DNA of 40,828 bases from NCBI RefSeq assembly GCF_016900375.1, contig NZ_JACJKB010000018.1:1-40828 (forward strand), given 5' to 3'. Below are positions 2,633 through 38,783 of the stretch, one piece after another; within the stretch, counting starts at the first letter, position 1, and each line of letters begins with the position of its first letter. Under the pieces are notes generated by a model. The model worked only from the letters and a program-made list of their open reading frames with translations. It was not told where the DNA came from and did no database searches. A program made the translations under genes and the position numbers. Source of the stretch: Collinsella tanakaei (GTDB lineage Bacteria; Actinomycetota; Coriobacteriia; Coriobacteriales; Coriobacteriaceae).

Positions 2633-3058
2633 CTACTCCTCGCCGACGACGATGCCCTGCTGCTCGAGATAGCCGAGCCAACGCTGCATGGTGTCTTCAG
2701 ACAAGGCGTGCTCCATCATGCACGCCTCCGCATCGGCGCGCTCGAAGGGAACGCCGAGCTCTTGGATGAGGAACGTGCGGATCAGGCGATGGCGATACCA
2801 TACCGCGCGGCCCAGATCTCTGCCCGCATCGGTGAGCACGACCTTGCCGTAATGGGACTGCTCAACCAGGCCCTGCTCCTTGAGCACCGTGACGGCCTTG
2901 TTGACCGACGCCTTAGAGACCTCGAGCTGCTGGGCGATATCGACCGAACGGATGCCCTCGCCCTGCGCGCCCTCCTGCTCAAGGCGGACCATGCACTCGA
3001 GGTAGTCCTCGTTCGCGACCGTCAGGTGAAGCTCACGCGAGATGTCGGTGGTTTCCAT
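2633..3058 (-). CDS. DtxR/MntR-family metal-dependent transcriptional repressor
   Basis: 141-aa metalloregulator: an N-terminal winged helix (helix-turn-helix about residues 38-60, with SVDIAQQLEVSKASVNKAV) followed by the metal-binding and dimerisation domain. It lacks the C-terminal SH3-like domain of DtxR/IdeR, so in length it matches MntR. Primary-site ligands can be read as D18 and E21 (EDYLE), H90 (WYRHR), C113, E116 and H117 (EACMMEH). D18 is MntR-like, while C113 sits where DtxR has its Cys ligand. The start at 3058 has GGGAGG 8 bases upstream; the ATG at 3100 is less likely. It is the first gene of the minus-strand cluster and divergent from pepT across 139 bases. Mn or Fe as effector cannot be settled. 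Confidence 0.9.
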   Translation of the reverse strand: METTDISRELHLTVANEDYLECMVRLEQEGAQGEGIRSVDIAQQLEVSKASVNKAVTVLKEQGLVEQSHYGKVVLTDAGRDLGRAVWYRHRLIRTFLIQELGVPFERADAEACMMEHALSEDTMQRWLGYLEQQGIVVGEE

Positions 3059-3197
3059 ATGCGTATCCTCCCGTCGTATCCACGGACAAGTGTAGCGCAT
3101 TCATCATGACCTTCGCGTCCTGTCCGCGTGCTAGAGTAACCGTGAAGTCACCACGCGCGTGCGCATGCGAACGCGCGCCATCCCGAAGGAGTAAGCC

Positions 3198-4445
3198 ATG
3201 TCCCATACCGAGCAGTCCGACGTTCTCGAGCGCTTCTTGCGCTACGTCAAGGTCAATACCCAGTCCAGCGATGCGGATTGCGACCGTGTGCCCTCGTCCG
3301 ACTGCCAGTTCGACCTTGCGAACCTGCTCGCCGACGAGCTTCGCGCCCTCGGCGCACTCGACGTGGAGGTCAGCGAGCACGCGTACGTCACCGCGCACAT
3401 CCCTGCGAGCAGCGGGTCGGAGGACAAGCCGGCGCTTGGACTGATCGCGCATCTCGACACCACCGAGGTGGCGCCCGGCGCGGGCGTGGCGCCGCATATC
3501 GTTCACTATAAGGGTGGCGACCTCGTGTGCGGCACGGTCGACGGCACCGACATCAAGATCGGTCCCGACAAGCTCCCCGCGCTCGATGCGCTCGTCGGCG
3601 AGGACCTGGTGTGCACGGACGGCCGCACGCTGCTCGGCGGCGACGACAAGGCGGGTATCGCCGAGATCATGGCGCTTGTCGCCCGCATCGCCGAGAACCC
3701 CGAGCTGCCGCATCCGCCGCTTGCCGTCTGCTTCTGCCCCGACGAGGAGATCGGCCACGGCGCCGAGCTGCTCGACATCCCCGCGTTCGGCTGCACCTAC
3801 GCCTACACCGTCGACGGCGGCCCCATCGGTGAGATCGAATGGGAGTGCTTCAACGCCTGCGAGGTCACAGTGACCTTCGACGGCTATTCCATCCACCCGG
3901 GCGATGCCAAGAACCGCATGGTCAACGCCACGAACCTGTTCTGCGAGTTCCACAACCTGCTCCCCGTTCCCGAGCGCCCCGAGCACACGGAGGGCTACGA
4001 GGGCTTCATCCATATCGAGGGCGTATCGTCCACGGTCACCCACGCCACCGCACGCTATATCGTGCGCGACCATGACGCTGCGCGCTTCCAGGCCAAAATC
4101 GACCTCATGCAGCGCGCCTGTGACTTCATGAACGCCCGTCTGGGCGAGCAGCGCGTCCACATGGACATCAAGCAGCAGTATCGCAACATGGCCGAGATCG
4201 TGGCCGATTACCCCGAGCTCATCGACACCGCGAAGATGGCGTTCGAGACGGTGGGCGTGACGCCGAACGTCCTGCCCATCCGCGGCGGCACCGATGGCGC
4301 CCAGCTCTCGTTCCGCGGCCTGCCGTGCCCCAACCTGTCCACCGGCGTCTACTGCTGCCACGGCGTGAACGAGTTCATCCCCGTCAGCTCCCTCGAGAAG
4401 ATGGTCGACGTGCTTGCCGAGCTTGTCGCCCGCTTCGCACACTAG
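3198..4445 (+). CDS. pepT: Peptidase T (tripeptide aminopeptidase)
   Basis: M20-family dinuclear zinc aminopeptidase removing the N-terminal residue of tripeptides in the cytoplasm. The 415-aa length matches PepT. Seen: LIAHLDTTEVAPG (first His/Asp metal pair), GGDDKAGIAEIMA (bridging Asp), CPDEEIGHG (catalytic and metal Glu pair), and the C-terminal GGTDGAQLS and NLSTGVYCCHGVNEF that carry the last ligand. The dimerisation lid domain lies between them at roughly residues 205-310. An AAGGAG ribosome site sits 8 bases before the ATG. The acyltransferase gene begins 6 bases after its stop, so the two are probably one transcript. Confidence 0.95.
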   Translation: MSHTEQSDVLERFLRYVKVNTQSSDADCDRVPSSDCQFDLANLLADELRALGALDVEVSEHAYVTAHIPASSGSEDKPALGLIAHLDTTEVAPGAGVAPHIVHYKGGDLVCGTVDGTDIKIGPDKLPALDALVGEDLVCTDGRTLLGGDDKAGIAEIMALVARIAENPELPHPPLAVCFCPDEEIGHGAELLDIPAFGCTYAYTVDGGPIGEIEWECFNACEVTVTFDGYSIHPGDAKNRMVNATNLFCEFHNLLPVPERPEHTEGYEGFIHIEGVSSTVTHATARYIVRDHDAARFQAKIDLMQRACDFMNARLGEQRVHMDIKQQYRNMAEIVADYPELIDTAKMAFETVGVTPNVLPIRGGTDGAQLSFRGLPCPNLSTGVYCCHGVNEFIPVSSLEKMVDVLAELVARFAH

Positions 4446-26861: not shown

Positions 26862-27197
26862 CTAATCTTGCAGATGTTCGATTATCCACGCCTTCACGCG
26901 TGGATAATCCTCGACAGCGGTCTTGTACACCGTCTCGAAGTGCAAGGTGAAATAACCGTGGGCATAAACATCCCGGGTCTTGGCTGCATACCTGAGCTCG
27001 CTGCCAGGGAACGCCGCGTAGAACTCTTGAGACAAATGCTTGGCGAGCTCGCCGATATTGATCGATGCCATCGCGGCGGCGCGCTTCACCGTCTCATCCT
27101 TAAGGAACTCTTCCATCGAACGGTCACTGAGCAGGCCCTAGAGAAATGTAATCTCGTCGACGATGCGCTCGAGAACATGTTTGTCAGGCTGCCTCAT
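26862..27197 (-). pseudogene. HepT-like toxin interrupted by an in-frame amber codon
   Basis: Reading from ATG 27197 gives MRQPDKHVLERIVDEITFL, then TAG (27138-27140), then GLLSDRSMEEFLKDETVKRA in the same frame to a natural stop at 26862. Ignoring the TAG, the 111 codons form a normal-length HepT (DUF86) protein: the HEPN ribonuclease motif R-x4-H-x-Y is intact as RDVYAHGY. The start overlaps the mntA stop by 14 bases, the standard arrangement. An internal ATG at 27116 has no ribosome site. Either the toxin was inactivated by one base change, or a short or suppressed form is made. A 12-bp inverted repeat at 26880-26909 lies in the coding end. Confidence 0.8.
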
Positions 27198-27504
27198 ACA
27201 ACGGCACCTCTTTTGAGATCATCAACAGCGAGTCATCGGGAAGTGGGTCCTGAACGATATCGACCGGCACGTTGAAATGGCCCTCCATTGCTTCAAGCGC
27301 TCGGGCAAGGGTGAAGAAGCTGACCACAGGGTCTGAAAACGTGATTAACAGATCGACATCCGAATCGTCGTGCGCCCGCCCTTCCGCATAACTGCCGAAA
27401 AGAGCAACGCGTTTGATATGCGGACCGCTGTCGGCCTGTCCTTGCTGGTAGTCATCGACCGCAGAGAGGACAGCGCGACGGATCTCCTCAATCGAGCAGC
27501 ACAT
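27184..27504 (-). CDS. MntA-like minimal nucleotidyltransferase antitoxin
   Basis: 106 aa with the nucleotidyltransferase signature GS-x10-D-x-D seen as GSYAEGRAHDDSDVDLL, and a third acidic residue in VDIVQ. In characterised HepT/MntA pairs this enzyme AMPylates the HEPN Tyr of the toxin and neutralises it. The ribosome site AAGGAG lies 5 bases before the ATG. A TAGAAT that could serve as a -10 lies about 27 bases upstream of the start (27531-27536). The active site looks intact although its partner gene is interrupted. Confidence 0.88.
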   Translation of the reverse strand: MCCSIEEIRRAVLSAVDDYQQGQADSGPHIKRVALFGSYAEGRAHDDSDVDLLITFSDPVVSFFTLARALEAMEGHFNVPVDIVQDPLPDDSLLMISKEVPLYEAA

Positions 27505-35697: not shown

Positions 35698-35898
35698 CGC
35701 TTATTCTCGCATCGTAATTGAGTTGAAACACAATTATTCATTTTGGCGGGAATATTCGATGGATTTATACGGAAGGGAGCGGGCGCAACGGGGCGTAGGC
35801 CGGCGGCGGGATGCTGCCCTCCGCCGATTGTTGCGCAACAGGGCGTGCGGCGCATGACCGACGATAGGGGCAGCGCAACCTGCTGCGATTGGAGCACC

Positions 35899-36480
35899 AT
35901 GCCTGCCGAGGAACTTGCCGCCGCGTTCTTTCACGCCCGCGATGACGCCGCGCGACGCGACGCCGCGCTCGAGCTTGCCGCCTGGTGCCATGACCATGAG
36001 GCTCCGTTCTCCTACTTTGGACAGCTCGCGACCGAGGGCGACTGGGTCGCATCCGCGTACTCCTACACGCCGGCGTCCGACCGCGCCGAGCGCTACCGGC
36101 TGGCGCGGCGCGCGGCCGCGTGGTGCTGCAGCAACGGGGCGAGCATCTGATTCAGAGAGACTTGGCTCAACGAGGGCGCGTGGCTCGCTATGGCCTACCG
36201 GGCCTGCGACGACAGCGCCAGCGCCCGGGAGCTCGCGCTGCGCCTGGCAGATCTCTGCCTGGGCGGGCACACGTCCTATCTGGTGGACGGCAGCTGGCTG
36301 AACGCCGGCGACTGGCTTGCCCGCGCGTACGCTCGCGCGCAAGGCGACGACGCCGCGCGCATTGCCGGGCGCGTAGCCACCTGGTGCCGCGAGAACGACT
36401 GCTCCGTGCAGCTCGAGGGCGCTTGGCACGACGCCGCCTGGTGGGAGCACGCGAGCAACGGAAGCGCCGCCGCCCGATAG
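35899..36480 (+). pseudogene. Tandem-repeat protein gene interrupted by an in-frame UGA
   Basis: From ATG 35899 (GGAG 5 bases upstream) the frame runs 83 codons to TGA at 36148-36150 and continues open in the same frame to a stop at 36480. Both parts share repeats of about 43 residues built on E/AG-D/A-W-L-A-x-AY and A-x-WC, e.g. EGDWVASAYSY, EGAWLAMAYRA and AGDWLARAYARA. The TGA falls inside a repeat, where the neighbours have Leu or Gln, so it is a nonsense change or recoded codon and not a domain end. The family is not recognised; the alpha-helical repeat resembles Sel1/TPR-like arrays only in general form. Reading as intact would give about 193 residues. Confidence 0.65.
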
Positions 36481-36610
36481 CATCGCCGGGCGAAACCGCC
36501 CCGACACCGGAAATGTGAACAAGAAGATTGTTGGACTTGCCTTGGTGCCAAAGCGCTAAGGTGGGGTGCGTACGCTGGTCCATAAGTCCGCGGAAGAAAG
36601 AGGAATAACC

Positions 36611-37504
36611 ATGTCTAACGGAATCACCAGCCCAGAAATGCCCCTTTACCAGCGCGAGGGGGCCTACATCCCGCGTGTCGCCGCCGTGCACGATATGTGC
36701 GGCTACGGCAAGTGCTCACTCGGCGTCGCCATCCCCGTGCTCTCCGCTGCAGGCTGCGACGTATGCCCCGTGCCCACCTCGCTGTTCAGCTCGCACACGG
36801 CGTTCCCCGGCTGGTACATGCACGATACGACTGAGATGCTCAGCGACTACCTGGCTGCTTGGAAGAACATCGGCGTGGATATCGACGCCGTGTACTCCGG
36901 CTTCTTGGGCGCGCCCGAGCAGGTCGACCGCATTCGCGATCTATACGAGATGTATCCGAAGGCGCTGCGCGTCGTCGACCCGGTGATGGCCGACCACGGC
37001 AAGGTCTACCCCACCTACACGCCCGAGCTCTGCGAGGCTATGGCCGAGCTCGCCGAGGGTGCCGACATCCTGACCCCCAACCTGACCGAGGCCGCCATCA
37101 TCCTGGGCGAGCCTATCGGTGACGCATGGGCGGGCGAGAACATCGCGGATGACGAGGCACACCGCCTGGTTGACGCCCTGCTCGCCAAGGGGACGCATAC
37201 CGTGGTGCTCAAGGGCATCCAGCGCGGGGACGGCCAGATCCGCAACTTTGTGGGCACCGATGGCGGCGCGTTCTTTGAGGTCAAAAACGAGCTGCTGCCC
37301 TACATGCTGCACGGCACCGGCGACCTGTACTGCTCGTGCCTGCTGGCCGCCGTCATGGCTGGCCGCACGCTGCGCGAGTCCGTCGTGTTCGCGGGCGACT
37401 TCGTGCACGATGCGATGATTGTCTCGTCGAAGCAGCCGCAGTTCCAGGACCGCGGCGTGTCGTTCGAAACGATGCTCGGCCGTGTCTCCGACCTGTTGAA
37501 ATAG
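36611..37504 (+). CDS. Pyridoxal/pyridoxamine kinase family protein
   Basis: 297-aa ribokinase-fold kinase, closest to PdxK/PdxY. Seen: VAAVHDMCGYGKCSLGVAIPVLSAAG (opening with substrate loop), LFSSHTAFPGWYMHD, YSGFLGAPEQ, VVDPVMADHGKVYPTYTPE, LTPNLTEAAIILGEP and the C-terminal HGTGDLYCSCLLAAVMAG, where the catalytic Asp (GTGD) lies. It phosphorylates vitamin B6 forms for PLP salvage. The ATG at 36611 has AGAGGAA 6 bases upstream; an upstream in-frame codon at 36566 is not used. A terminator follows. Confidence 0.93.
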   Translation: MSNGITSPEMPLYQREGAYIPRVAAVHDMCGYGKCSLGVAIPVLSAAGCDVCPVPTSLFSSHTAFPGWYMHDTTEMLSDYLAAWKNIGVDIDAVYSGFLGAPEQVDRIRDLYEMYPKALRVVDPVMADHGKVYPTYTPELCEAMAELAEGADILTPNLTEAAIILGEPIGDAWAGENIADDEAHRLVDALLAKGTHTVVLKGIQRGDGQIRNFVGTDGGAFFEVKNELLPYMLHGTGDLYCSCLLAAVMAGRTLRESVVFAGDFVHDAMIVSSKQPQFQDRGVSFETMLGRVSDLLK

Positions 37505-37507
37505 TGC

Positions 37508-37532
37508 AAGTTTGGGGACAGGTCCCAAACTT
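37508..37532. repeat. REP-like palindrome (GGGGACAGG type)
   Basis: Perfect 9-bp stem AAGTTTGGG / CCCAAACTT around GACAGGT. It begins 4 bases after the kinase gene stop. Relatives lie at 5686, 38222 and 38753. Confidence 0.75.
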
Positions 37533-37540
37533 TCATCCGA

Positions 37541-38221: not shown

Positions 38222-38254
38222 GTGAAAGATTGGGGCCTGTCCCCGAACTTTCAC
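38222..38254. repeat. REP-like palindrome (GGGGACAGG type)
   Basis: GTGAAAGATTGGGG / CCCCGAACTTTCAC with two mismatches around CCTGT. Same core as at 37508, with longer arms. Confidence 0.7.
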
Positions 38255-38703: not shown

Positions 38704-38743
38704 GCTGCCCGTTCCGAGAATATATATTCTCGGAACGGGCAGC
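38704..38743. repeat. Perfect 40-bp palindrome
   Basis: 20-base arms without loop (GCTGCCCGTTCCGAGAATAT), centred in ATATAT. A partial AATATGTATATTCTCG lies 45 bases upstream. Confidence 0.88.
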
Positions 38744-38752
38744 CCGGTGTAA

Positions 38753-38778
38753 CAGCTTGGGACCTGCCCCCAAACTTG
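38753..38778. repeat. REP-like palindrome at the end of the orphan gene
   Basis: AGCTTGGGACCTGCCCCCAA then ACTTG: an imperfect relative of the 37508 repeat, 5 bases past the stop of the large minus-strand gene, where it could act as its hairpin terminator. Confidence 0.6.
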
Positions 38779-38783
38779 CAACG

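Follow-up and report, generated by a model that had tools for sequence, protein, structure and literature searches.

Background

In-frame stop codons are widespread in bacterial genes, often in genes whose dN/dS lies below 1, and readthrough has been proposed for them; most of these stops are as short-lived as polymorphisms within a population (Belinky et al. 2021, PMC7918605, in the part of the paper drawn on here). The survey that yielded this picture used stops common to two or more species (Belinky et al. 2021, PMC7918605). A tRNA-Trp with an anticodon stem of only four pairs has been reported to read UGA (PMC13092985, likewise drawn on in part). On stop codons in Collinsella, none of the literature matches listed deals with the subject in its title or at the start of its abstract.

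The stretch of DNA analysed here ("the window") is a 40,828-nucleotide contig of Collinsella tanakaei (NZ_JACJKB010000018.1, assembly GCF_016900375.1). A first-pass annotation of the letters alone had singled out a repeat protein of about 193 residues, if restored, that is broken by a single in-frame UGA, and had raised the prospect of recoding. The analysis that follows places the UGA in its repeat, its genus and its genome, and weighs what it may be.

The interrupted frame and its repeats

Translation of the frame gives 193 codons followed by a terminal TAG; the TGA at codon 84 is the only internal stop, as had been claimed. The ATG at the head of the frame is supported as the start codon because a GGAG-bearing stretch, CTGCGATTGGAG, lies directly 5' of it and is also present before the only intact homologue found, that of C. 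tanakaei An368. Coordinates are collected in Table 1; the repeat borders were assigned by us from the AlphaFold model of the homologue.

Table 1. Features of the interrupted repeat-protein gene (positions in the window)
Feature	Position	Strand	Basis or remark
Likely Shine-Dalgarno-like GGAG	35891..35894	+	four bases 5' of the ATG, inside the stretch common to the An368 homologue
Repeat-protein frame, 193 codons, one interruption	35899..36480	+	translation; 71% identity to the intact 187-residue An368 protein
Repeat 1, residues 16-61 (long helix, beta-hairpin, short helix; predicted)	35944..36081	+	borders from the homologue's AlphaFold model; self-comparison register
Repeat 2, residues 62-105, contains the stop	36082..36213	+	self-comparison register; homologue's AlphaFold model
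In-frame TGA, codon 84	36148..36150	+	translation; aligned An368 codon is sense (Arg)
Codon 87, Glu; a hairpin-turn Gly in the other seven repeat copies of both proteins	36157..36159	+	
First in-frame ATG 3' of the stop, 96-residue open frame	36190..36192	+	Leu codon in the homologue
Repeat 3, residues 106-148	36214..36342	+	self-comparison register; homologue's AlphaFold model
Partial repeat 4 and C-terminal tail, residues 149-193	36343..36477	+	self-comparison register; homologue's AlphaFold model
Terminal stop (TAG)	36478..36480	+	translation

When the window protein is compared with itself (with X at the stop), the top offsets are 44, 46 and 43 residues. The repeat and its continuation past the stop are taken to be real because no shuffle among 1000 attained the best self-comparison score, whether of the window protein or of its homologue. 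The positions of the glycine at the hairpin turn are spaced 46, 44 and 43 residues apart, with four repeats in frame. The proposal that repeats of about 43 residues run in register through the TGA, with the stop in mid-repeat, thus holds up; placed on the homologue's model, the stop lies in repeat 2, where residues 83-85 form the first of the predicted hairpin strands. Every one of the homologue's four repeats has the turn glycine, as do three of the four repeats of the window protein; the exception is a glutamate only three codons past the stop, which may hint, in a small way, at decay.

The AlphaFold model of the An368 protein has a mean pLDDT of 94.4, and its units consist of a long helix, a beta-hairpin and a short helix: the protein is confidently predicted to be an alpha solenoid like those of TPR (tetratricopeptide repeat) proteins, with one beta-hairpin per repeat. 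Judged by its type of fold, the intact protein would most likely serve as a protein- or peptide-binding scaffold. The TPR motif has 34 residues. Membership in the TPR family by that motif was considered and dropped: the spacing here is 43-46 residues, and neither the window protein nor its homologue matches a Pfam family at E up to 1. The repeat protein has no match in NCBIfam or PADLOC, none among PDB sequences at E up to 1, and best matches of only E 0.15 and 0.38 in PHROGs; Foldseek against the PDB returned 630 matches at E up to 10, with none at 0.001 or better.

The homologue and the distribution of the gene

Fourteen pattern matches among genome contigs led to a single relative, the An368 gene already referred to (positions 3001-3564 of its contig L003). 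The alignment is gap-free through the first 186 residues of the homologue, and an arginine codon stands at codon 84: the one homologue that turned up does not share the stop, and neither selenocysteine nor cysteine occupies the aligned position. Relative to this intact homologue the window gene has a single in-frame stop, as expected of a nonsense-mutated gene. The two genes have the same repeat register and the same site upstream of a pdx kinase gene (Pfam Phos_pyr_kin), which lies downstream of the repeat gene in both genomes; An368 differs in having no internal stop. On the other side the neighbours also differ: carA in the window, in An368 a protein kinase with WG repeats (L003 471-2831; Pfam Pkinase and WG_beta_rep), and tblastn listed none of carA, carB and purE in 9,000 bases of contig L003. 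The small frame before the WG-repeat kinase is, from its sequence, presumably FHA-like.

With the window's own genome included, 2 of 43 Collinsella genomes have the gene, as do 2 of 396 in a sample of the phylum; it was not found in IMG/VR or among plasmids and phages. At family level 3 of 65 genomes match; the third match (genome G040; E 0.004, 17 bits) is weak, lies in a frame that we take from its sequence to encode a radical-SAM protein, and was discarded as a chance match. When the first part of the gene is searched as DNA, 33 of the 43 genomes match at E 0.01; these matches are read as noise from GC-rich sequence rather than as homologues, since the best of them beyond the two known copies (E 7.2e-5) extends over only 38 bases. 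A corresponding search for the pdx kinase neighbour gave matches in 38 of 43 genomes, in many of them just 23 bases long. In the 17 best pdx loci of other species, with up to 1.5 kb on each side, the repeat protein has no tblastn match better than E 0.008, and two of these loci, read frame by frame (in G014 and G040), have no separate frame of at least 100 codons between carA and the pdx gene. By its distribution in these genomes, then, the gene is dispensable at the level of the genus, and the accessory standing claimed for it is upheld.

Selection on either side of the stop

The dN/dS ratio of the second half was of particular interest, and it equals that of the first: by the NG86 method the window gene and its An368 homologue give about 0.22 before the stop and about 0.22 after it, and a second count of our own puts the ratios at 0.25 and 0.24. 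On bootstrapping, pN/pS covers nearly the same range in the two halves (0.23-0.55 and 0.24-0.52); read in the wrong frame, pN/pS rises to 1.3-1.8. No frameshift separates the rest of the frame from the homologue: the mark of plain decay that had been named earlier has not accumulated in the window gene. The codon-usage scores of the two halves (0.08 and 0.09) are unlike those of conserved genes, and to the same degree on either side.

How much do these numbers say? They come from two sequences, with dS near 1 between them, and as such do not fix the direction or the timing of change on the window's own branch. A stop gained late on that branch would give just such ratios, and their equality does not show the second half to be still in use. 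Because constraint is equal on both sides and the downstream frame is unshifted, the stop should be recent, or a sequence error, or tolerated.

Around the stop 13 of 24 bases differ from the homologue, and shuffles attain an equally high maximum with P 0.46; the same density recurs in a second stretch of the gene, and the differences at the stop do not form a significant cluster. A patch of template switching or gene conversion at the stop was entertained and rejected on that P value and on the longest exact match elsewhere in the window, which is 11 bases.

Use of UGA in the genome

Stop-codon usage in the window and at other loci of the genome looks TAG-heavy. Calling frames by codon usage across 154,828 bases of loci that overlap in part (at least 120 codons, score above 0.2, identical ends counted once; both halves of the repeat gene fall below the score limit) yields 51 frames, of which 32 end in TAG, 14 in TAA and 5 in TGA; of nine genes that we chose by name in the window, none is terminated by TGA. 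Pfam domains are present in each of the three TGA-ended frames, out of five, that were scanned; in one of them, a phosphorylase, the domain is matched up to position 232 of its 233, which falls at residue 286 of 292, and TGA follows. UGA works as a terminator in this genome, though a rare one.

The decoding apparatus is unexceptional. Release factor RF2 was found above its family cut-off. None of 12 tRNA-Sec matches in the draft genome rises above the cut-off, and the eight that were fetched are ordinary tRNAs. Of 52 tRNA matches, 50 were read with ARAGORN, and none has a suppressor anticodon (one that would read UGA, UAG or UAA); the other two are fragments at contig ends, one of which (on L090) ARAGORN left uncalled. 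The tRNA-Trp has a CCA anticodon and five pairs in its anticodon stem (the pairing was made by eye; the energy-minimum fold is not the cloverleaf), and in this it is unlike the four-pair UGA reader of PMC13092985, as described in the part of that report drawn on here. Rfam has no match in 35700-36800 at E up to 5, and the RNA fold of 36142-36250 is ordinary (z 0.49; folds at least as good arise in 130 of 200 shuffles). The hint of recoding thus finds no backing: the homologue has a sense codon, and tRNA-Sec, a suppressor anticodon, an Rfam match and an unusual fold are all missing from what was searched. Recoding by selenocysteine, a suppressor tRNA, a four-pair tRNA-Trp or a change of code was accordingly dropped, RF2, the tRNAs read and the TGA-terminated domain genes all speaking against it.

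What is the stop?

In our view, held with a probability of roughly 0.79, the feature is a nonsense allele of recent origin, in an accessory repeat-protein gene restricted to one lineage, because a single stop interrupts an otherwise open repeat frame whose intact homologue has a sense codon; because RF2 is present, TGA is used as a terminator, and neither a suppressor anticodon among the tRNAs read nor a tRNA-Sec over the cut-off was found; and because a turn glycine has been replaced near the stop in a gene with which the genus can dispense. Several points count against it. The dN/dS ratios (0.24 after the stop against 0.25 before) do not in themselves demonstrate relaxed selection, and no frameshift has accumulated; two sequences do not fix the direction or timing of the change; genes here seldom end in TGA (5 of 51 called frames, none of nine picked genes); and the differences around the stop do not cluster significantly. 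The main rival, improbable but ahead of the others, is that the consensus base is wrong through an error of sequencing or assembly and that the gene is intact in the organism. A draft assembly in 87 contigs would allow it, equal constraint in the two halves of the gene agrees with it, and there is a second single-stop gene, hepT, within 10 kb. What speaks against an error is that the homologous codon differs at two of its three bases and that neighbouring codons differ as well, which does not look like one odd base; the completeness of the genome (99.84%, with 0.02% contamination) argues in the same direction but says little about single bases.

Could the stop instead be real and leaky? Readthrough, tolerated or regulated, would furnish some full-length protein and keep the second half of the gene under selection, and this we think unlikely. 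The UGA would then act as a brake, an equally unlikely device by which the 83-residue form is mostly made and a small share of full-length protein slips through. Purifying selection that is equal before and after the stop is what readthrough would predict, and the rarity of UGA at gene ends in this genome would in principle allow the codon to be a less efficient stop than usual; further positive evidence did not emerge. The next base is U, in bacteria an efficient context for UGA termination, and the only homologue found has no stop to read through. The RNA after the stop has no unusual fold (z 0.49), the region has no Rfam match at E up to 5, and among the tRNAs read there is neither a suppressor anticodon nor an unpinned tRNA-Trp such as PMC13092985 describes in the part drawn on. 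The survey of Belinky et al. (2021, PMC7918605), in the part used here, cuts both ways: it lends readthrough the precedent of genes with in-frame stops and low dN/dS, together with the proposal itself, and it finds such stops to be mostly short-lived. A split gene, with the 83-residue piece and a 96-residue restart product as two working proteins, is a good deal less likely still. There is an in-frame ATG 14 codons past the stop that is not an ATG in the homologue, and repeat proteins can sometimes work as fragments; the Shine-Dalgarno-like element before this ATG, GAGGG, is 13 bases away, which is too far and makes for poor spacing of a ribosome-binding site, and the restart product, as modelled on the homologue, would be without the hairpin of repeat 2 and without about half of that repeat's short helix. 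Last comes the reading of UGA as selenocysteine or as a codon reassigned throughout the genome, to which we give hardly any credence: the rarity of TGA at gene ends (5 of 51, 0 of 9) is in its favor, and it has against it the presence of RF2, a phosphorylase gene that ends in TGA right after its domain, the lack of a tRNA-Sec over the cut-off and of a UCA anticodon among the tRNAs read, and an arginine, not a cysteine, at the homologous position.

On the preferred reading, that of a recent nonsense allele, the course of events can be sketched. The intact form, as in An368, would be a four-repeat alpha solenoid of about 190 residues whose overall shape is predicted to resemble that of TPR proteins. 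In the genome of the window, translation would end at codon 84, within the hairpin of repeat 2, and the product that remains would be a fragment of 83 residues, about one and a half repeats, probably without the job of the full protein. The mutation would have come late enough for the rest of the frame to retain its codon structure and its signature of selection, and one hairpin-turn glycine beside the stop may already have been lost. Such an allele is mainly a matter for annotation, where the gene should be flagged as interrupted; otherwise it is of little import, and the intact homologue is the better object of study. If the UGA were read through after all, the gene would be a natural test of the leakiness of UGA in a genome that seldom ends its genes with that codon.

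Other features of the window

The amber codon noted earlier in hepT is where it was said to be: a frame on the reverse strand (26865-27197) matches Pfam HepT-like (E 2.5e-13) and has one in-frame TAG, at 27138-27140. The frame adjoins an open gene with a nucleotidyltransferase domain (mntA-like; 27184-27504). Outside its own genome, hepT has matches in 2 of the 43 genus genomes, both of them weak.

The gene-poor stretch between the pdx gene and a frame of 641 residues is shared by two further elements: a perfect, loop-free palindrome of 20 + 20 bases (38704-38743) and three dispersed, partly palindromic 27-base repeats of the AGTTTGGGGACAGGTCCCAAACTT type (37509-37535, 38227-38253 and 38754-38780), the second and third of which are 78% and 74% like the first.

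Relation to known systems

The closest structural company of the An368 model is that of the TPR and TPR-like alpha solenoids, to which its superhelix is similar by VIA-align: Pins/LGN, alpha-SNAP/Sec17 and kinesin light chain are among those listed. Pins gives the best Z (13.4; rmsd 5.6, 158 aligned), followed by chain 3j96_G of the 20S complex (Z 13.0, rmsd 3.0, 157 aligned) and Sec17, 1qqe (Z 11.8, rmsd 3.0, 159 aligned), values to be read with the tool's own note that helical repeats can reach a Z of about 13 through common shape alone. Unlike the TPR, the unit of the window and An368 proteins is 43-46 residues long and is predicted to have a beta-hairpin in every copy. On the unlikely reading in which the UGA is a leaky brake, a hairpin-bearing, TPR-like solenoid of this build would in addition be an undescribed repeat type, limited to a couple of Collinsella species.

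As to the stop itself, the gene resembles those surveyed by Belinky et al. (2021, PMC7918605) in having one stop inside the frame and, around it, a dN/dS far below 1, and differs, going by the part of that survey drawn on here, in that its stop is known from one genome only; at this locus the comparison of sequences fits the ordinary end of the picture that they drew.
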